Positions 3,740 through 48,994 of a stretch of 50,734 bases of DNA are shown here, piece by piece. Source of the stretch: a virus; IMG/VR virus record IMGVR_UViG_3300037225_000234, positions 1 through 50,734 of that record. One strand, given 5' to 3'. The stretch's first letter is position 1, and each line of letters starts with the position of its first letter. The notes under the pieces are model-generated. The model searched no databases. It had not been told where the DNA came from and saw only the letters and a list, made by a program, of their open reading frames with translations. Made by a program: the position numbers and the translations under genes.

Positions 3740-4507
3740 ATGGAGACAGAAAAAAAGAAATATAAACGACATTATCCGCATTGCAGATTATGTGATAAGG
3801 AACTCGGTCGTTCTGATGCTGTTTTTTGCAGGCATTGTTACGACACCAATCCCGATTTATTAAAAATAAGAAGTGAAAGAATGTCGGGAAACAATAATCC
3901 GACAAAAAATCCAGTAATAGCAAAGAAAATCAGTGATGCTAAAAAAAATAAATCGTATACCGAAAAACAAATAGGCAAATGTGGATTTCAAAAAGAAAAT
4001 AAGTTAAGTAGTTTTAAGCGGTCAGAAGAAACAATAAAAAAAATAAAACATAAAAAAACGTCAGAACATTGTATTGCAATAAGTATGGCAAGATTAGGAA
4101 TAAAAAATACAAAAGACTGGTTTGGTTTTGTGACGCCCATATATCAACAATTAAGAAATTGTATGAAATATCAGGAATGGCGTCAGCAAATTTTTGTTCG
4201 TGACCATTTTACTTGTCAGAATCGTAATTGTAATAAAACAAATAAAAGATTGCACGCACATCACATTAAACATTTATCCGAACTATTAAAAGAGGTTTGG
4301 TTCTATTTGCCTTTAATGGCAGATGAAGATTTATTTAAGGCTTGTTTAGTATATGACCCCATGTGGGATATAAAAAACGGAATTACACTTTGCGAAAAGT
4401 GTCACAAAATAGAACACAGTAAAGAAAGCGGTCAGGCTTCACGCCCTAATGTGTGTGGCGATTCTCAAAAGGGGTCGCCCACACAACCGCTTTTTGTAAA
4501 TAATTAA
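3740..4507 (+). CDS. HNH homing endonuclease 1
   Basis: This 255-residue free-standing endonuclease has an N-terminal zinc ribbon (CRLCDKEL...CRHC) and a basic Lys/Asn-rich middle typical of NUMOD-type DNA-binding repeats. The C-terminal HNH domain shows FTCQNRNC, LHAHHIKHLSELL and ITLCEKCHKIEH. The HH pair and the flanking Cys pairs are the expected metal and catalytic residues. By family, it nicks or cuts a specific site to copy itself into empty alleles. It sits between the capsid gene and the head-joining genes, so it is an insertion in the structural operon. The last 25 residues (after the HNH) are unlike any HNH tail and coincide with a strong RNA structure at 4425-4493. Start ATG 3740 follows AAAAAAGGAA. 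Confidence 0.85.
   Translation: METEKKKYKRHYPHCRLCDKELGRSDAVFCRHCYDTNPDLLKIRSERMSGNNNPTKNPVIAKKISDAKKNKSYTEKQIGKCGFQKENKLSSFKRSEETIKKIKHKKTSEHCIAISMARLGIKNTKDWFGFVTPIYQQLRNCMKYQEWRQQIFVRDHFTCQNRNCNKTNKRLHAHHIKHLSELLKEVWFYLPLMADEDLFKACLVYDPMWDIKNGITLCEKCHKIEHSKESGQASRPNVCGDSQKGSPTQPLFVNN
4425..4493 (+). other. Three-way-junction RNA structure / terminator-like element
   Basis: AAAGCGGT (4425-4432) pairs with ACCGCTTT (4486-4493), enclosing two more stems: GGC-TTCAC-GCC (about 4435-4445) and a 10-bp arm TGTGTGGCGA-type (4452-4461 with 4475-4485, one bulged C). The descending arm runs into TTTTTG (4491-4496), so it could terminate transcription. It overlaps the odd C-terminal tail of HNH endonuclease 1. 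Base pairing is seen directly; the role is inference. Confidence 0.45.
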
Positions 4508-4527: not shown

Positions 4528-5277
4528 ATGTCAAAAGGTATTTATACGAGGACAGAAAAACATAGGACTGCCTTGAAAGTTCCTCATAAAGTCCCTCTGG
4601 ATTTTGTTCCTTGGAATAAAGGTATAAAATTGTCTGAAAAAATACGGAATAATATACGTGATGGCCATATTGGATTAAAACATTCTTCAGCAGTAAAAAA
4701 TAAAATAGGAAAAGGAAATAAATTAGCATACAAAGAAGGAAGAAGGATTTGTAAATTACCAAGCCATAAAGGCGAAAAATTATCTCAAGAGCATATAAAT
4801 AAAATTCGAGATTCAAGGAAAGATTATAAACATTCAGAAAAAACTAAAGAAAAAATGAAAGAAAGCCGAATTGAGTGGTTAAAAAAACATCCTGAATTCT
4901 TTTGTAGTGAGAATTTTCCAAAAGGCATATCGAGTAAAGGTTGGAAAGGCGGAATTACTCCGATAACAAAGTTAATTCGTCATTCTTCTAAATACAAACA
5001 ATGGCAAATGGCAGTTCGTATAAAAAAAGATTTTACTTGCAAAACGTGTAAAGAAAAAGGTGGTTATTTGCACGTCCACCATATAAAACCTTTTTCCATT
5101 TTACTGGAAGAAATAAAACAAAATTTACCGTTAATGGATTTATATGAAGGTGCAATGCAATATACTCCTATGTGGGATGTAAATAATGGCGAGATTTATT
5201 GTAAAAAATGTCACGAAGACGAACATGAAAGATTAAAGAAATTAAAAAAGGAAAACAATGTTACACCTTTACCTTAA
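4528..5277 (+). CDS. HNH homing endonuclease 2 with NUMOD3-like repeats
   Basis: This 249-residue protein starts MSKGIYTRT and carries repeated 'xxHSxETKxKIxxxxK' helices over residues about 25-110 (IGLKHSSAVKNKIGKG, DYKHSEKTKEKMKESR), the NUMOD3-type DNA-contact repeats. The C-terminal HNH has FTCKTCKEKGG, LHVHHIKPFSILLEE, then MWDVNNGEIYCKKCHEDEH. It closely resembles HNH genes at 35287 and 48455 in its catalytic domain. The ATG at 4528 follows GGCGGAGGTTAAATAA. It overlaps the next gene by 20 bases, so the following structural gene now takes its ribosome site from inside the endonuclease gene. Confidence 0.87.
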   Translation: MSKGIYTRTEKHRTALKVPHKVPLDFVPWNKGIKLSEKIRNNIRDGHIGLKHSSAVKNKIGKGNKLAYKEGRRICKLPSHKGEKLSQEHINKIRDSRKDYKHSEKTKEKMKESRIEWLKKHPEFFCSENFPKGISSKGWKGGITPITKLIRHSSKYKQWQMAVRIKKDFTCKTCKEKGGYLHVHHIKPFSILLEEIKQNLPLMDLYEGAMQYTPMWDVNNGEIYCKKCHEDEHERLKKLKKENNVTPLP

Positions 5278-7616: not shown

Positions 7617-8537
7617 ATGAAATATAAAACAAAACATACAGTAAAAACAAAAAATAAGATTTCGGAATCCGAAAGCGAAACAAAAAAGAAATTGTTTGCA
7701 GAAGGTAAATTAAAAATATGGAATAAAGGTATTCCGATGTCGGAGGCACAAAAAGATAAATTATCTAAAATCTTAACTAATGGGATTGGTAAAGCAGAGG
7801 TTACTTGTTTAGGATGTGGAATTAAATTTAAGGTTTCACCTTCAAGAATTAAAAGTGGAAGAGGGCGTTATCATTCAAAAGAATGTCAATATAAAGCAAA
7901 GTTAGGAAGTGGTATTAAAAAATATTGTCAATATTGTGGCAATCTAATTCCTGGTGATGGAGACAAGTATTGCAATAGAATATGTATGGGTCTTGCAATG
8001 TCAGGTGAAAATAGTCCAGCAAAAAGACCAGAAGTTAGAAAAAATATGAGTAAAGCCCATACAGGTTTAAAGTCTCCATTGAAAGGTATTCCAAGACCAG
8101 ATTTCCAAGGTGAGAATAATCCTTGTTATAAAAGTGGATTACCCAAATGCGAAAAGTGCGGAAAAGAATTAAGTGATTACGATAGTGAATTATGTAAAGA
8201 ACATTATTTGGAATCATTAAGCGGGAAAGGGAATCCTGCATGGCTTAATGGAATAAGTAAATTACCATATTCTTTTGATTTCGATGAGAGATTGAAGGAT
8301 TTTATACGGGACAGAGAAAAACATAAATGTCTTTTATGTGAAGTGCCAGAAAAGGAACTCGACAAAAAATTATGCGTTCATCATATTGATTATAATAAGA
8401 AAAATAGCAGTGAAGTGAATTTAGTAGCATTATGTAATTCTTGTAATATTAAAGTAAACACCAATCGCAAATATTGGGAAAATTACTTTACAGATTTAAT
8501 GATTTCCAAAATAGATTTTTCAAAAAAGGAAACTTAA
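7617..8537 (+). CDS. HNH homing endonuclease 3 with several zinc ribbons
   Basis: This 306-residue protein has a Lys-rich start, then at least three Cys pairs (CLGCGIKF, CQYCGNL, CEKCGKEL), with RIKSGRGRYHSKECQ and NRICMGLAMSGENSP between them. The C-terminal HNH reads KCLLCEVPEKEL, CVHHIDYNKKNS and ALCNSCNIKVNTNRKYW. The same HNH subtype and the RIKxGRGxY segment occur in the gene at 41288, so these two are paralogues. It is inserted exactly between two structural genes: ATG is adjacent to the previous TAA, and the next ATG follows its stop directly. By family it is a mobile site-specific endonuclease. Confidence 0.87.
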   Translation: MKYKTKHTVKTKNKISESESETKKKLFAEGKLKIWNKGIPMSEAQKDKLSKILTNGIGKAEVTCLGCGIKFKVSPSRIKSGRGRYHSKECQYKAKLGSGIKKYCQYCGNLIPGDGDKYCNRICMGLAMSGENSPAKRPEVRKNMSKAHTGLKSPLKGIPRPDFQGENNPCYKSGLPKCEKCGKELSDYDSELCKEHYLESLSGKGNPAWLNGISKLPYSFDFDERLKDFIRDREKHKCLLCEVPEKELDKKLCVHHIDYNKKNSSEVNLVALCNSCNIKVNTNRKYWENYFTDLMISKIDFSKKET

Positions 8538-35155: not shown

Positions 35156-35290
35156 ATGAAAACACCTATATCGGTAAGAATAGAAATTAACCTGTGGAAT
35201 TGGGTTAGGAAATATTGCAAGAAAAATGGATTGACTGTAACAGGCTTAATAACAAGATTCTTTGTTGATTTGAGGAATAAAAATAAATGA
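35156..35290 (+). CDS. Ribbon-helix-helix-like small DNA-binding protein
   Basis: The 44-residue product (KTPISVRIEINLWNWVRKYC, NGLTVTGLITRFFVDLRNK) has the strand-helix-helix layout of Arc/MetJ repressors: a short beta strand with alternating polar residues, then two helices. ATG 35156 follows ACAGAGGATAAT, 16 bases after the P2 -10 box. It overlaps the HNH gene by ATGA. It may repress its own promoter through the inverted repeat. Confidence 0.6.
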   Translation: MKTPISVRIEINLWNWVRKYCKKNGLTVTGLITRFFVDLRNKNK

Positions 35291-35985
35291 AAAAAAACGG
35301 AAATTGGAAAGATAGATTGTCTGTGTGCAAAAAATGCGGAAAACAAGTAAAAAGTTATTATGCTAAATTTTGTAAAAAATGTTGGGGAAAAAGCATTAAA
35401 GGTAAAAATCATCCAAATTGGAAAGGTGGTTGGAAAAATAATTTTCCAAAATGTAATAAATGCGGGAAACAAGTAAAAGATTGTTATGCTAAATTATGCC
35501 AGAAATGTTTATTAGAAAATCGAAAAGGTAAAAATAATCCTAATTATAGACACGGAAAAACAAAATGCAAAGAATGCGGAACGCAATTAACAGGTTATAA
35601 AATAAAAAAATGTAAAAAATGTTGGAGTAAAGGTGTTAAAGGTAAAAACAATTGGAATTGGAAAGGTGGAATAACTCCAATAAAGAAACGATTAAGGCAG
35701 TCTTTTGAATATAAGCAATGGCGTCAAAAGAATTCAATTCGATTTGATTTCACTTGTCAAGAGCCAAAATGTAATCAACGGGGTGGAAAATTACACGTTC
35801 ATCATAAAAAATCTTTTTCTGTTTTAATGCACGAAGCCCACGATTATATGCCCTTATTAGATTGGTATGATGCGTGTCTTAAATATACTCCTTTGTGGGA
35901 TATAAATAATGGGATAGTTTACTGTAAGGATTGTCATAGAAAAGAACATAAAAGGCTTAAAAATTTAAAGAAAAATAAAAAATGA
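35287..35985 (+). CDS. HNH homing endonuclease 4
   Basis: The 232-residue protein has four similar CxxC...CxxC ribbon units (CKKCGKQVKSYYAKFCKKC, CNKCGKQVKDCYAKLCQKC, CKECGTQLTGYKIKKCKKC) separated by KGKNHPNWKGG-type turns. The C-terminal HNH shows FTCQEPKCNQRGGKLHVHH, KSFSVLMHEAHDYMPLLDWYDA and GIVYCKDCHRKEH. It is overlapped on both sides by ATGA junctions, upstream with a ribbon-helix-helix gene and downstream with the recombinase. So an endonuclease is fully wired into an early operon. Confidence 0.87.
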   Translation: MKKNGNWKDRLSVCKKCGKQVKSYYAKFCKKCWGKSIKGKNHPNWKGGWKNNFPKCNKCGKQVKDCYAKLCQKCLLENRKGKNNPNYRHGKTKCKECGTQLTGYKIKKCKKCWSKGVKGKNNWNWKGGITPIKKRLRQSFEYKQWRQKNSIRFDFTCQEPKCNQRGGKLHVHHKKSFSVLMHEAHDYMPLLDWYDACLKYTPLWDINNGIVYCKDCHRKEHKRLKNLKKNKK

Positions 35986-41180: not shown

Positions 41181-41291
41181 ATGAAAAGAGAAAAGTGCTT
41201 GAGATGCGGACATAAATGGGTCAAACGACAAGATATGCCTATAGTATGCCCGAAATGTAAAACACCGTATTGGAATAAGGAAAGAAAATGA
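41181..41291 (+). CDS. 36-residue zinc-ribbon protein, copy 1
   Basis: The product MKREKCLRCGHKWVKRQD...CPKCKTPYWNKERK has two CxxC pairs and the CGHKW motif of a compact zinc ribbon. Compared with the protein at 48345 it is nearly identical, and both immediately precede an HNH gene with overlapping stop/start. The ATG is six bases from the P5 -10 box, without a Shine-Dalgarno, so translation may be leaderless. A role as a regulator of, or helper to, the homing endonuclease is inferred. Confidence 0.65.
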   Translation: MKREKCLRCGHKWVKRQDMPIVCPKCKTPYWNKERK

Positions 41292-42139
41292 ACGGTAAAC
41301 CTAAATGTGTGGATTGCAAAAAAACACTAACACATTACAGCAGAAAAACTAAAAGATGTTGGAATTGTTCCGTAATATGGCGGAAAAGAAAAAATCATCA
41401 CGGTTGGCTTGGTGGAAAAATAACTGTAATATGTAAAAATTGTAAAGAACCATTCGATACTTACCCTTCAAAAATTAAAATAGGTAGAGGAAAATATTGT
41501 GGTAGAAAATGCCACGGAATAGCAATGAGTAAAAACAATGTTGGTAAAAGCAATCCTCGATATAAAAAAGGAAAACCTCATTGTATAGATTGCGGAACAC
41601 CATTAACAACCTACGGACATAAAAGATGCCAAAAATGTTGGGGAAAATGGCACAGAGGTAAAAATCATTCATGTTGGCAAGGAGGATGGAAAAATAAACT
41701 GCCAAAATGTATTGACTGCGGAAAACAAGTTAAGGGTTTTAATGCTAAAAGATGTCCCGAATGTGGTGCAAAAGAAAACGGCAAATTACATTCAAAACAA
41801 AATCATCCTAATTGGCAAGGCGGAAAATCATTTGAACCTTATTCGCCAGAATTCACTCAAGTATTAAGACGAATAATCCGAAATAGGGACGGCCATAAAT
41901 GTCAACTTTGTGGTGTGCCAGAAATTGAATGCGTAAAAGCATTGCACGTTCATCATATAGATTACAATAAAAAACATAGCCATCCGAGTAAACTAATATC
42001 ATTGTGTGGCAGTTGTAATATTAAAGTAAATGTAAATAGAAAAAAATGGGAAAAATATTTTAAAAATTTAATTAAAGAAAAGTATGGAGATTTGTATGGA
42101 TTGAACAAAATTCAAAAGGGAGGGATGATTTATGATTAA
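41288..42139 (+). CDS. HNH homing endonuclease 5 with zinc ribbons
   Basis: The 283-residue protein has five or more Cys-pair units (CVDCKKTL...CWNC, CKNCKEPF, CIDCGTPL...CQKC, CIDCGKQVKGFNAKRCPEC) and KIKIGRGKYCGRKCHGIAMSK. Its C-terminal HNH (KCQLCGVPE, LHVHHIDYNKKHSHPSKL, SLCGSCNIKVNVNRKKW) aligns with HNH endonuclease 3 at 7617. It overlaps the mini zinc-ribbon gene (ATGA) and the next gene by 8 bases. Confidence 0.87.
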   Translation: MNGKPKCVDCKKTLTHYSRKTKRCWNCSVIWRKRKNHHGWLGGKITVICKNCKEPFDTYPSKIKIGRGKYCGRKCHGIAMSKNNVGKSNPRYKKGKPHCIDCGTPLTTYGHKRCQKCWGKWHRGKNHSCWQGGWKNKLPKCIDCGKQVKGFNAKRCPECGAKENGKLHSKQNHPNWQGGKSFEPYSPEFTQVLRRIIRNRDGHKCQLCGVPEIECVKALHVHHIDYNKKHSHPSKLISLCGSCNIKVNVNRKKWEKYFKNLIKEKYGDLYGLNKIQKGGMIYD

Positions 42140-43280: not shown

Positions 43281-43298
43281 AAAAGACGACCGGACAGG

Positions 43299-43676
43299 AT
43301 GATAATGATAAAAACAGAATTTGATTTTAACCAGAAATCCCTTGCTGAACAGTCAGCACTGTTTCCGCATATTGCCTGTCCGGTTATGTGGGAAAGCAAG
43401 GGATTTCCTATTTGGCGGTCTGGTCGGGTCTTGGGTCTTTGGGGTGTCCTTAATGCCGAAAGACATTCTCAAGAGAAAAGGCTCGAACCCGACCGACCGT
43501 TTATAAGAATTTGGGGTTTAAAGTCGGGGTCTGGAAGGGCAAATGGAATATCGATACCGCCTGACCCCTTGCGAAATGGTGGTTCGGTCGGGTCAGGGCG
43601 TAGAATAGGAATAAAAGCCAGAATAGGATTGGCTGACGTTACCGCCCGACCACCGTTTTTAGGAATCCTAATATGA
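43299..43676 (+). CDS. Doubtful ORF / possible regulatory region
   Basis: A 125-residue ORF starts at ATG 43299 (or 43305) and ends in an ATGA overlap with the initiator gene, which supports translation. But from about 43400 composition (Arg/Gly/Pro-rich, e.g. GRANGISIPPDPLRNGGSVG) is unlike the neighbours, and a second frame is open. It may be a real linker gene, or an untranslated stretch between two gene blocks. Its GC is higher than surroundings. Confidence 0.3.
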   Translation: MIMIKTEFDFNQKSLAEQSALFPHIACPVMWESKGFPIWRSGRVLGLWGVLNAERHSQEKRLEPDRPFIRIWGLKSGSGRANGISIPPDPLRNGGSVGSGRRIGIKARIGLADVTARPPFLGILI

Positions 43677-44620
43677 AATATTTTCCCCACGATATAGATT
43701 CGTCTGGCGACCCAAAACTTCAACATTTACACTATGAAATGGGGTGCGAGGGCACAGGTATTTATTGGCGTCTGGTTGAGCAACTTTACAGGGAAAACGG
43801 GTATCTGCCAATCAATAGAATTCCCGTTTTGGCTCGAACTTTGAGAATTTCACCGAGCAAATTGACGAAAGTGTTGAACGGTTTCGATTTATTCCAGAAA
43901 GACGACGAAAGGTTCTGGTCAAAAGCGTTGAACAAGAGATTAGCCCACATAATCGATAAGTGTAATAAAGCCAAGGAAAATGCTAAAAGTGGGTGGGCTA
44001 AAAGATATGCGGACGCAGAGCAGACGCATAGCGGACGCAAAGCGGACGCAAAGCACCCGCTATGCAAAGGCAATGCTAATATAATAAACGATACTATAAT
44101 AAACAATAAAGAAGCAACTACAGCAGAAATTTTTTCTTTGGACGACCTACAAACTGAAAAAGCCGAAAACCCGAAACCAGAGTCACCTACCTTGTCGGGT
44201 AAGAAAAAGAAATCCAAGTTTACCCTGACACAGGAACAGATTGACCTTGGTTGGAAAACGTGGGGGAGGGAACTTGCGACTTTAAGAAGCATACCCGATT
44301 ACCCTTTCGATGAGAATGTTGATATTGACCATCTTAACGAATTGTCAAAAAAGTTTCCCCAAATTAACTTTTATGAGTTAATTTTTGAATTGAAGGCATG
44401 GTTAAGAGATAAACCGCTTGAAGAAAAAAGTCATCCAAGAGGTCGGCTTTTGAATTGGTGTAAGCGTAGAGTTAAGGGGTGGCCGGTTAAAGAGCCGATA
44501 GTTTCGCCTGATGGGAAAACTCACCGTGAAGGCGAAATGAGGAAAACAATGGAAAACGGGAAATTAAAGGTCGAGATTTGGGAAGGTTCTCAATGGCAAT
44601 CCGTAACCATAGCAGATTGA
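43673..44620 (+). CDS. Replication initiator, DUF4373-type (DnaD-like)
   Basis: The 315-residue protein begins YFPHDIDSSGDPKLQHLHYEMGCEGTGIYWRLVEQLY, the classic DUF4373 (Lin1244/Lin1753-like) N-terminal winged-helix start, followed by NRIPVLARTLRISPSKLTKVL. Residues about 110-140 form a short basic linker coded by tandem 11-bp repeats. The C-terminal half (WKTWGRELATLRSIPDYPFDENVDIDHL, FELKAWLRDKPL, LNWCKRRVKGW) is the helical region that recruits helicase. It lies before the primase-helicase gene. By analogy with lambda O, it should bind the iterons inside its own gene. Confidence 0.75.
   Translation: MKYFPHDIDSSGDPKLQHLHYEMGCEGTGIYWRLVEQLYRENGYLPINRIPVLARTLRISPSKLTKVLNGFDLFQKDDERFWSKALNKRLAHIIDKCNKAKENAKSGWAKRYADAEQTHSGRKADAKHPLCKGNANIINDTIINNKEATTAEIFSLDDLQTEKAENPKPESPTLSGKKKKSKFTLTQEQIDLGWKTWGRELATLRSIPDYPFDENVDIDHLNELSKKFPQINFYELIFELKAWLRDKPLEEKSHPRGRLLNWCKRRVKGWPVKEPIVSPDGKTHREGEMRKTMENGKLKVEIWEGSQWQSVTIAD
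44009..44111 (+). other. Candidate replication origin: 11-bp iterons plus AT-rich tract
   Basis: Five tandem 11-bp units run from 44009 to 44063: GCGGACGCAGA, GCAGACGCATA, GCGGACGCAAA, GCGGACGCAAA and GCACCCGCTAT (last two degenerate by eye). The period is one helical turn and is not a multiple of three, so protein repeats are not the cause. An AT-rich tract (44072-44111) follows directly. Iterons plus AT-rich DNA inside an initiator gene is the lambda-type origin layout. Confidence 0.6.
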
Positions 44621-44690: not shown

Positions 44691-46754
44691 GTGATATTCA
44701 AAACAATAAAAGACAAAATTGACTTAAAAACATATCTTTCAAAATATCTAAAATTTAATAAAGATTTCGCTTTGTGTCCGTTCCACGAGGAAAAAACGCC
44801 TTCTTTCTTTTGTAAGGATGGCGATACTTCATTTCATTGTTTTTCTTGTGGCATTTCAGGCGATATATTTGATTTTATAGAAAAGCATCTTGGATATAGC
44901 AAAATGGATGCCATTAAATTATTAGCAGAAGAACTTGGTGTGAGACTAAATGAGGGAGACCAAAAATACGCCAAAGATGTTCAGGAATTACAGGAAAAAA
45001 ATATACGTATTGTTTCTCAATTCAAAGCAAATATTTCTCAAGCAGAACAATATCTTGTAAGTCGAGCCATATCATCAGAAATGTCGAACAGATTCGACAT
45101 TGGATATGACCCAAGTAGGAACGCCATTTATTTTCCTATTCGTAATCGTCATAATAAAATTGTAGGAGGTTCATTTAGATATATCGTTCCCGCAGATGGA
45201 CAGCCAAAATATCGCAACACGGCTTCTGATGTTTATGGCTATTTCAAAAAATCTGAAATTCTATATAATTTGGCATCTGCACGCAATGAGATTAAAAAAA
45301 AGAACACTCTTTATATTGTTGAAGGTTACGTAGATGTTATTAGTTTGGTGCAAATCGGATTGGATAATTCGGTCGGTATGCTTGGCAGTTATATCACAAA
45401 AGAGCAGGCAACAATATTAAAAGAATTTATAAATCAGGATTGTCAGATAGTTTTAATTCCCGACAATGATGAGGCTGGACGCAAAAGCATTGAAAAGAAC
45501 TATTTACTTTTAAGGGCATTTTTTTCGGAGAACTCAATCAAGGTAGCACAAATGCCGGACGACAACAAAGATTTTAATGAGTATTTCGTTAAAGTAAAAG
45601 CAAAATATCCCGACGTAGAATTAAATTATTTATATGAGGATTTTGAGTTTGTTAGAAATCCTATATTTGCGGAAATCGAACTGGTTCGACAAATTGTGTC
45701 AGAGGAAAATTTGGATGTCCAACAGCAGTATATCAGGATTAAAAAATTTATTGAAACAATTAGGAAAAATCCAATTATTTATGAAAGTTGTCTTGATGAA
45801 TTAAGTAAATTATGGAATAAAAAACGAGAAATCATTGAAAGTTATTTTGGTAATGTGAAAGACATTACTACAACGACCTTTGTTTCGGATATTATGGAAA
45901 TGGTTGATAAATACACATATTTTGTAAAAAATGTTGATAATCAGAGAATAAAATTGGGGTATAAAGACCTTAATAGGATGATAAGAGGAATTAACCCTGG
46001 TGAGGTTTTATTTATTACTGGTAGAGCAAGCGTTGGGAAAACGGCCTTCATTCTTAATTTGTTGAGTAAAATCACAAAAAATCAAAATGTTAATGCTCTT
46101 TTCTTTTCGCTTGAGCAACAGAGTGAGCAAATTGCAGAGAGAATGCTCGCTATGGCCAATAATCGTTTTGCTTGGGAAATTGAGAAAATGTTCAAAGAGG
46201 ATGACGCCGAAATAACAGATGTTATTCGTAAATACATTGATGAATTCAAAGGTATTTGTGTTGTTGACAAAGATAGTTTGACTATTGAAAATATTGAGCA
46301 GATAATTTTGCATAATAATATTTTGAAAACACCAGCCCAAATTGTTGCTATTGATTATCTTGGATATATAAAAACTCCTCATTCAGATAATCCGTATGTA
46401 GCCACCAGTAATCTTGCCAAGGAACTCAAGGCTCTTGCAAAACGTCTTAATATAGTTCTTATAGTGCTCAATCAGTTGAGCCGTGAAGGTGGTTCTGGTG
46501 GCGTGCCGGTAACAATGAGAATGTCAAGGGACAGTGGGGTAATTGAGGAGAGTGCGGACGTGCTCCTCGGTATGTGGAGACCCGACCTTGCGGAGGGGCT
46601 TACACAACAGGAAAAAGATAATTTAGTAAAAGAGGGAAATTTTCACATTGAGGTTCTTAAGAATCGGTCTGGCCGGACGGGTAAAGTAACCCTGCATTTA
46701 AATCACGAGACATTAAGATTGTCCGATATAGTCTGGACGCAGGCAGGAGTATAA
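44691..46754 (+). CDS. Primase-helicase fusion (DnaG TOPRIM + DnaB)
   Basis: The 687-residue protein starts with GTG 44691. It has a CHC2 zinc finger (C29, H32, C50, C53), a TOPRIM domain (YIVEGYVDV near residue 207, IPDNDEAGR near 255) and a DnaB-type helicase (Walker A GRASVGKT near 443, VAIDYLGYI near 552, ALAKRLNIVLIVLNQLSREGG). It primes and unwinds DNA in one chain like T7 gp4. It is the main replication enzyme of the phage, next to the initiator. The Walker A sequence GRASVGKT keeps the needed G-K-T. Confidence 0.9.
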   Translation: MIFKTIKDKIDLKTYLSKYLKFNKDFALCPFHEEKTPSFFCKDGDTSFHCFSCGISGDIFDFIEKHLGYSKMDAIKLLAEELGVRLNEGDQKYAKDVQELQEKNIRIVSQFKANISQAEQYLVSRAISSEMSNRFDIGYDPSRNAIYFPIRNRHNKIVGGSFRYIVPADGQPKYRNTASDVYGYFKKSEILYNLASARNEIKKKNTLYIVEGYVDVISLVQIGLDNSVGMLGSYITKEQATILKEFINQDCQIVLIPDNDEAGRKSIEKNYLLLRAFFSENSIKVAQMPDDNKDFNEYFVKVKAKYPDVELNYLYEDFEFVRNPIFAEIELVRQIVSEENLDVQQQYIRIKKFIETIRKNPIIYESCLDELSKLWNKKREIIESYFGNVKDITTTTFVSDIMEMVDKYTYFVKNVDNQRIKLGYKDLNRMIRGINPGEVLFITGRASVGKTAFILNLLSKITKNQNVNALFFSLEQQSEQIAERMLAMANNRFAWEIEKMFKEDDAEITDVIRKYIDEFKGICVVDKDSLTIENIEQIILHNNILKTPAQIVAIDYLGYIKTPHSDNPYVATSNLAKELKALAKRLNIVLIVLNQLSREGGSGGVPVTMRMSRDSGVIEESADVLLGMWRPDLAEGLTQQEKDNLVKEGNFHIEVLKNRSGRTGKVTLHLNHETLRLSDIVWTQAGV

Positions 46755-48344: not shown

Positions 48345-48455
48345 ATGAAAAAGGAAAAATGTTTAAGGTGTGGACATAAATGGATAAAGAGACAAGATAA
48401 ACCGATTGTGTGTCCCAAATGTAAAACGCCTTATTGGAATAAGGAAAGAAGATAA
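48345..48455 (+). CDS. 36-residue zinc-ribbon protein, copy 2
   Basis: The product MKKEKCLRCGHKWIKRQD...CPKCKTPYWNKERR starts at ATG 48345 after GGTGGGAGGGATAGA, 18 bases downstream of P6. It differs from copy 1 (41181) at only a few residues. The stop overlaps the next HNH ATG (TAATG). Unlike copy 1, it has a Shine-Dalgarno, so the two copies would be translated differently. Confidence 0.68.
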   Translation: MKKEKCLRCGHKWIKRQDKPIVCPKCKTPYWNKERR

Positions 48456-48994
48456 TGCCTAAAGGTATTTATGTAAGAACAGTCGAAATATTAAAAAAAC
48501 AATCAAGATTAGGAAAACATTTTACTCAAAAAGGTCTTGAGAATTTAAGGGAAAGTCATAAAGGACAAATAGCGTGGAATAAAGGGGTAAAAGGAATGAA
48601 AAGTCCATTTTTGGGTAAACATCATTCCGAAGAAAGCAAAAGAAAAAATAGAGAAAAACATATAGGCAATAAATATAAATTAGGAAAAGGACACAAAACT
48701 CCAGCAAGGATACTTATAAGAGAAAGCAATAAATATAAAATATGGAGACAATTAATTTATTTACGTGATGATTTTACTTGTCAAGATTGTGGGCAAAGAG
48801 GCGGAAAATTAGAAGCACATCATCATAAAAAATCATTTAGTCTATTGATAAAAGAAGCCTGTGATTTTCTGCCATTATTGTCTATTTATGATGCTGTGAT
48901 GACTTATAGTCCTTTTTGGGATATAGATAATGGAAAAACATTATGCAGGGGATGTCACGATAAAACGAAACCAGGAAGACCTAAAAATGTGTAA
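48455..48994 (+). CDS. HNH homing endonuclease 6
   Basis: The 179-residue protein starts [11 protein letters not shown], like HNH endonuclease 2, carries one NUMOD3-like stretch ([18 protein letters not shown]), then [47 protein letters not shown]...[32 protein letters not shown]. It is a compact version of the same family as HNH 2 and 4. The gene follows the mini zinc-ribbon gene and overlaps the downstream HNH remnant. Confidence 0.86.

Follow-up and report, generated by a model that had tools for sequence, protein, structure and literature searches.

The layout in which an iteron origin lies inside a gene is already known from several replicons. In lambda, ori lies within gene O, with iterons in the middle of the gene and an AT-rich tract downstream of them (PMC7466680). 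In the RepA_N initiator of pSK41, the sites recognized by the N-terminal winged helix-turn-helix (wHTH) domain of ~120 amino acids are situated centrally in the gene that encodes it; the origin itself codes for a linker that the protein can do without, and a separate C-terminal domain follows (PMC5703833); RepA_N sites are semi-palindromic repeats that converge on a poly-A tract (PMC7145576). In SPP1, oriL is located in gene 38, where direct repeats and an AT-rich unwinding element lie inside the phage initiator gene (PMC6316719). Moreover, in the hybrid initiators of pPR9 and pUSA03 the plasmid N-terminal domain and its origin have been swapped together for a phage-type pair, and the minireplicon works (PMC5703833), so that an N-terminal domain and its in-gene origin can be regarded as a portable module.

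The DNA considered here, referred to as the window, is the whole viral record IMGVR_UViG_3300037225_000234 (50,734 nt, ~50.7 kb). It contains phage genes, namely those for a tail-sheath protein, an integrase, and a recombination-directionality-factor-like (RDF-like) protein. Neither the full initiator nor the primase-helicase, used as queries against viral contigs, returned near kin of this phage, and no DNA similar to the window was present in the phages collection. The GC skew has zero sign changes across the window and, as almost all of its genes are on the plus strand, it is uninformative for or against an origin. Regarding mobile elements, at least six ORFs resemble HNH-type endonucleases when their sequences are read (3740-4507, 4528-5277, 7617-8537, 35287-35985, 41288-42139, and 48455-48994), and a weak group I intron match (2358-2586 within the region 2056-2628; 31.4 bits, under the gathering score of 50) overlaps the end of an ORF read from its sequence as LAGLIDADG-like and sits between two ORFs resembling one split gene. 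The HNH-type ORFs, as probable homing endonucleases, amount to an unusually high load for a 50-kb phage.

The locus is centered on one gene (Table 1), which the initial annotation had taken for a DUF4373 initiator, an assignment upheld by the domain matches and by the primase-helicase gene that adjoins it on its downstream side. The protein matches PF14297 (Lin1244_N, formerly DUF4373) with E 7.1e-13 and 49.5 bits against a gathering cut-off of 25, and phrog_2562, annotated as "replication initiation protein", with E 6.9e-17. It also matches DUF1376 weakly (E 0.0022), which suggests that DUF1376 and Lin1244_N are probably sister domains. In an AlphaFold2 (AF2) model built with 39 related sequences, the pLDDT is ~93-97 over residues 11-110 and falls to 38-52 over residues 121-180, a segment encoded by the last part of the array, the AT-rich tract and the DNA beyond. 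The top structural hits for residues 6-90 are almost without exception nucleic-acid-binding domains of the winged helix-turn-helix or winged-helix type, with modest Z values of 5-6, and a DNA-binding fold is likely for the modeled N-terminal domain, without a specific relative. A profile search of solved structures with the initiator yielded no relative. As for the C-terminal domain, residues 201-263 are 38% identical to gp79 of the Arthrobacter phage DanielleIgnace (L011), a stand-alone protein of 118 aa encoded beside a DNA helicase, as if this domain were there a separate gene.

Table 1. Features of the initiator locus, with positions in the window
Feature	Position	Strand	Basis
Initiator gene, 315 aa: N-terminal Lin1244_N domain, disordered linker, C-terminal domain	43673-44620	+	PF14297, phrog_2562
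Residues 3-118, modeled as the winged-helix N-terminal domain plus a long helix behind it; likely iteron-binding part	43679-44026	+	AF2 model, structural matches
Iteron 1, GCGGACGCAGA	44009-44019	+	Read directly; repeat search; shuffle test
Iteron 2, GCAGACGCATA	44020-44030	+	Read directly; repeat search; shuffle test
Iteron 3, GCGGACGCAAA	44031-44041	+	Read directly; repeat search; shuffle test
Iteron 4, GCGGACGCAAA	44042-44052	+	Read directly; repeat search; shuffle test
Degenerate fifth unit, starting at 44053 with GCACCCGCTAT and containing CCGCTATGC at 44057-44065	44053-44065		Sequence comparison
Junction word GGCAATGC, between iterons and AT-rich tract	44069-44076	+	Sequence; same place in relatives L014, L018, L019, L022
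AT-rich tract with a weak period of 5/15 bp, a candidate for the unwinding element	44077-44112	+	A+T content; TRF period 15; lag analysis
Primase-helicase fusion (CHC2 zinc ribbon, Toprim, DnaB_C)	44691-46754	+	Domain matches; phrog_239 DNA primase/helicase, E 7.7e-66

Within this gene, the consensus GCRGACGCANA occurs in four direct copies between 44009 and 44052, reported by TRF as period 11 with 4.0 copies and by the repeat search as four copies spaced exactly 11 bp. The initial annotation had described five such units, and this stands for the four direct copies only: the fifth agrees with the consensus at 6/11 bases when read as a direct copy, whereas its 9-mer CCGCTATGC matches GCATAGCGG at 44026-44034 exactly in inverted orientation, so that four direct units and one inverted unit describe the array better. 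The successive copies fall in codon phases 0, 2, 1, 0, and 2, and all three frames are used. The tandem score of the array is 23. The highest value among 2000 synonymous-codon shuffles was 13, as it was among 2000 codon-order shuffles, and none of either kind (0/2000) reached the observed value; no other array of the window whose period is not divisible by 3 scores as high. Selection on the repeats acts on the DNA and not on the protein. Elsewhere in the 50.7 kb, the core GCRRACGCA is found only as three isolated single sites (13170, 13664, and 32703 minus strand).

Past the junction word the DNA becomes rich in A and T, reaching 78% A+T over the 60 nt of 44080-44139 compared with ~58% for much of the initiator gene. 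The earlier description of the array as being out of phase with the codons and adjoining an AT-rich tract was correct on both points. The lag-5 value of the tract is 0.49, which was reached by 4/2000 codon-order shuffles and by 214/2000 synonymous ones, so the 5-bp period of the window's own tract, a short AT-rich variant, is suggestive and not significant against the synonymous shuffles.

The resemblance to lambda ori is one of arrangement, since in both cases the iterons are placed centrally within the initiator gene, an AT-rich tract follows on the same downstream side, and the coding strand is A-rich in that tract. The units differ, because lambda has four iterons that are each a 19-bp imperfect inverted repeat spaced ~20-24 bp apart (lag peaks at 20 and 23 in the lambda record, L428), whereas the window has four contiguous 11-bp units and a period of 11. 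In addition, the lambda tract, though A-rich on the coding strand, does not show the 5-bp periodicity at the strength found in the relatives of the window gene described below, and gene O is followed by the loader gene P where the window initiator is followed by a primase-helicase. The architecture modeled for the window protein, with a probable wHTH N-domain, a central linker coded by the candidate origin region, and a separate C-terminal domain, recalls that of the RepA_N protein of pSK41; the units in the window gene are 11-bp tandem repeats rather than semi-palindromes converging on poly-A. Compared by description, SPP1 oriL resembles the window in having direct repeats and an AT-rich element within the initiator gene, and differs in that SPP1 uses the helicase loader gp39 with the helicase gp40. 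The phage-type N-terminal domain of pPR9/pUSA03 is pfam13730, unlike the Lin1244_N domain found here. At E<=0.01, the window initiator matched neither PF06970 (RepA_N) nor any O-like PHROG. A second PF06970 search at E<=1e-3 was likewise empty, although its control genomes gave no match either, which leaves the weight on the first search. RepA_N and lambda O were absent among the listed fold matches of its modeled N-domain, an absence that carries no weight as evidence. By analogy, and as far as the sequence goes, the candidate origin of the window may work like lambda ori/O and the RepA_N plasmids, being homologous to neither by sequence.

The same layout was found in relatives of the initiator gene, gathered as two sets. 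Set 1 comprised ~46-47 non-redundant genes, including that of the window, from viral contigs and phage records, while set 2 comprised 68 further genes collected afterwards and separately from prophage/genome contigs, mostly of Bacteroidota and Bacillota, to which the same measures were applied. When read side by side, nearly all relatives show short repeats right after the N-domain, followed by a purine tract of the AAAGG/AAAGT type. Against synonymous shuffles, set 1 gave z=6.8 at lag 11 in the first 60 nt past the N-domain and z=9.4 at lag 5 in nt 36-96, with a series at lags 5, 10, 15, and 20, and the C-domain stretch of the same set held nothing comparable; set 2 gave z=8.1 at lag 11 (nt 0-96) and z=12.1 at lag 5 (nt 60-120). 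These relatives are not phylogenetically independent and the z-scores overstate their independence, so more weight should be given to the fact that two sets collected separately agree. A significant linker array, with 11 as the commonest period, is present in 84/118 genes, compared with 25/118 for control stretches in the N-domain and 11/112 in the C-domain. Thus, across the 118 relatives, codon choice shapes an 11-bp period in the linker directly behind the N-terminal domain, and an A-rich tract with a 5-bp period comes next. In the canonical Lin1244/Lin1753 proteins ("MARPxKxGLDYFPLD..."; L461, L468, L471, L476, L498, and L528) a 5-bp AAAGN tract after the N-domain appears in the protein as repeated KESKV.

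The iteron word itself is shared as well. The core GCRRACGCA has 18 matches in the linkers of 45 set 1 relatives and 9 in ~250 kb of flanking DNA; none of 300 permuted patterns reached 18 linker matches, and none gave more than 2. In set 2 it has 24 linker matches in 12 genes, distributed over the frames as 8/6/10, compared with 13 elsewhere, and CAATGC, part of the junction word, is 12-fold enriched in the linkers of this set. The genes whose linkers are most like that of the window have unrelated C-terminal domains (normalized score <=0.07). Partial Mantel correlations with the linker words are 0.217 for the N-domain and 0.189 for the C-domain, both significant and so similar that they do not separate which domain is the binder.

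Searches by DNA pattern, with no protein in the query, led back to the same genes. When 2.9 million viral contigs were scanned for three 11-bp iterons in a row, the triple was present in at least 119 of them; among the 120 matches listed, 76 lie in genes scoring with the HMM of the window N-domain, mostly at residues 102-143, and the remaining 40 ORFs of at least 100 aa include 31 matching DUF1376 and 33 matching the PHROG "primosomal protein", so that at least 107/120 of the matches listed are located in genes of the Lin1244_N type or of the related DUF1376 type. The control, a reversed pattern of equal composition and spacing, occurred in 27 contigs of the whole collection, 0 of them in Lin1244_N-type genes. 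The combination of GCAATGC with four AAAGN units gave 115/120 matches in Lin1244_N-type genes. With (AAAGN)x6 alone, 84/109 sense ORFs were recognized by the N-domain HMM and 20/21 of the remaining long ORFs matched phrog_2562, which makes ~104/109 of them replication initiators. After the removal of near-duplicates the three pattern sets retain 63, 65, and 86 distinct flanks, and the design is thus repeated in phage genes of this kind by the hundreds. DUF1376-type phage proteins (e.g., L207, L220, and L253) have GCRRACGCA arrays of 11-bp period right after the N-domain, at the same place as in the window gene, so that intragenic origins probably extend to the DUF1376 family.

Because the repeats are conserved at the DNA level, occupy a fixed place in initiator genes of diverse phages, share a word among N-domains of one superfamily and irrespective of unrelated C-domains, precede an A-rich tract, and recall three systems with this layout, we consider that the array and the tract very probably form an intragenic iteron origin of this phage, or one of several, inside the initiator gene, with a probability of about 0.83. 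The lambda-like origin proposed in the initial annotation agrees with everything that could be checked in sequence, i.e., the family, the neighboring gene, selection at the DNA level, recurrence, the pattern search, and the wHTH fold, all of which were as expected. We infer that the initiator binds at the array and that melting, helicase recruitment, and the start of replication take place there. In the proposed mechanism, the Lin1244_N initiator would bind the four 11-bp iterons through its winged-helix N-domain; with units spaced by roughly one turn of the helix, the protomers would be bound on one face of the DNA and could assemble into one complex. This complex would strain or wrap the DNA and open the AT-rich tract just downstream. 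The replicative helicase would then be recruited by the C-terminal domain together with the disordered linker that precedes it, and the likeliest candidate for this helicase is the product of the adjacent primase-helicase gene of the phage.

Other readings of the array must be weighed against an origin. Iteron initiators often autoregulate, and the array could be an operator through which the initiator represses its own operon or controls copy number, with replication starting elsewhere; such binding would leave an identical sequence signature. This is nevertheless unlikely, as the array is ~340 bp inside the coding sequence, a scan for promoters and terminators near it gave no enrichment over shuffles, and the A-rich periodic tract that follows the array throughout the family is more in keeping with unwinding than with repression. 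The leader that separates the initiator from the RDF-like gene (43281-43672) is a second candidate, either as a regulatory site or as the true origin, and in the latter case the in-gene array would be a secondary binding site or a site for termination or handcuffing, comparable to the SPP1 gp38 sites oriL and oriR. The leader is predicted to fold far below shuffles (RNA MFE -139.9, z -4.24) and has two perfect inverted repeats, of 13 nt (43334-43346/43395-43407) and 10 nt (43289-43298/43375-43384), which cross each other and so would be alternatives or a pseudoknot; it has no match in Rfam, Pfam, or PHROG. However, it contains zero copies of the iteron core, and the recurrence across the family was established for the in-gene layout, which makes this reading highly improbable. 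An ORF of 125 aa without a database match (43299-43676) overlaps the start of the initiator as ATGA. Finally, it is scarcely credible that the linker protein is merely of low complexity and the DNA pattern a by-product of peptide repeats, which are common in disordered segments such as that of the AF2 model, since 11 is not a multiple of 3, the copies in three frames encode different peptides, and protein-preserving synonymous shuffles abolish the signal (0/2000; set-wide z 8-12), and this reading was rejected on the synonymous and codon-order shuffles.

For the intragenic origin, the fresh element is the 5-bp tract, which is weak in the window itself. It is conceivable, as a tentative proposal, that a two-part in-gene origin code is common to the Lin1244_N/DUF1376-type initiator genes of phages, in which 11-bp iterons of one helical turn are followed by a strand-specific purine tract of half a turn (5 bp, AAAGN) acting as an unwinding and helicase-loading signal. 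As part of this code, the AAAGN tract might be, on a similarly speculative analogy, a counterpart of the 3-nt DnaA-trio that repeats at a different step, 5 bp in place of 3 nt. We found no published account of Lin1244_N/DUF4373 origins, or of the repeat patterns that mark them, in the open-licence PMC literature, and the novelty is provisional given that the search was limited to such papers.

For hundreds of phages and prophages with unmapped origins, from Bacillota, Bacteroidota, and other groups, these findings would provide a sequence rule that locates the origin from a single gene. The pairing of an N-domain with its in-gene origin may be of use for compact portable replicons, and the locus offers a test case in which a reading frame and a replication origin would be optimized on the same bases. 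Moreover, the 5-bp tract would be a concrete, testable candidate signal for unwinding or helicase loading.
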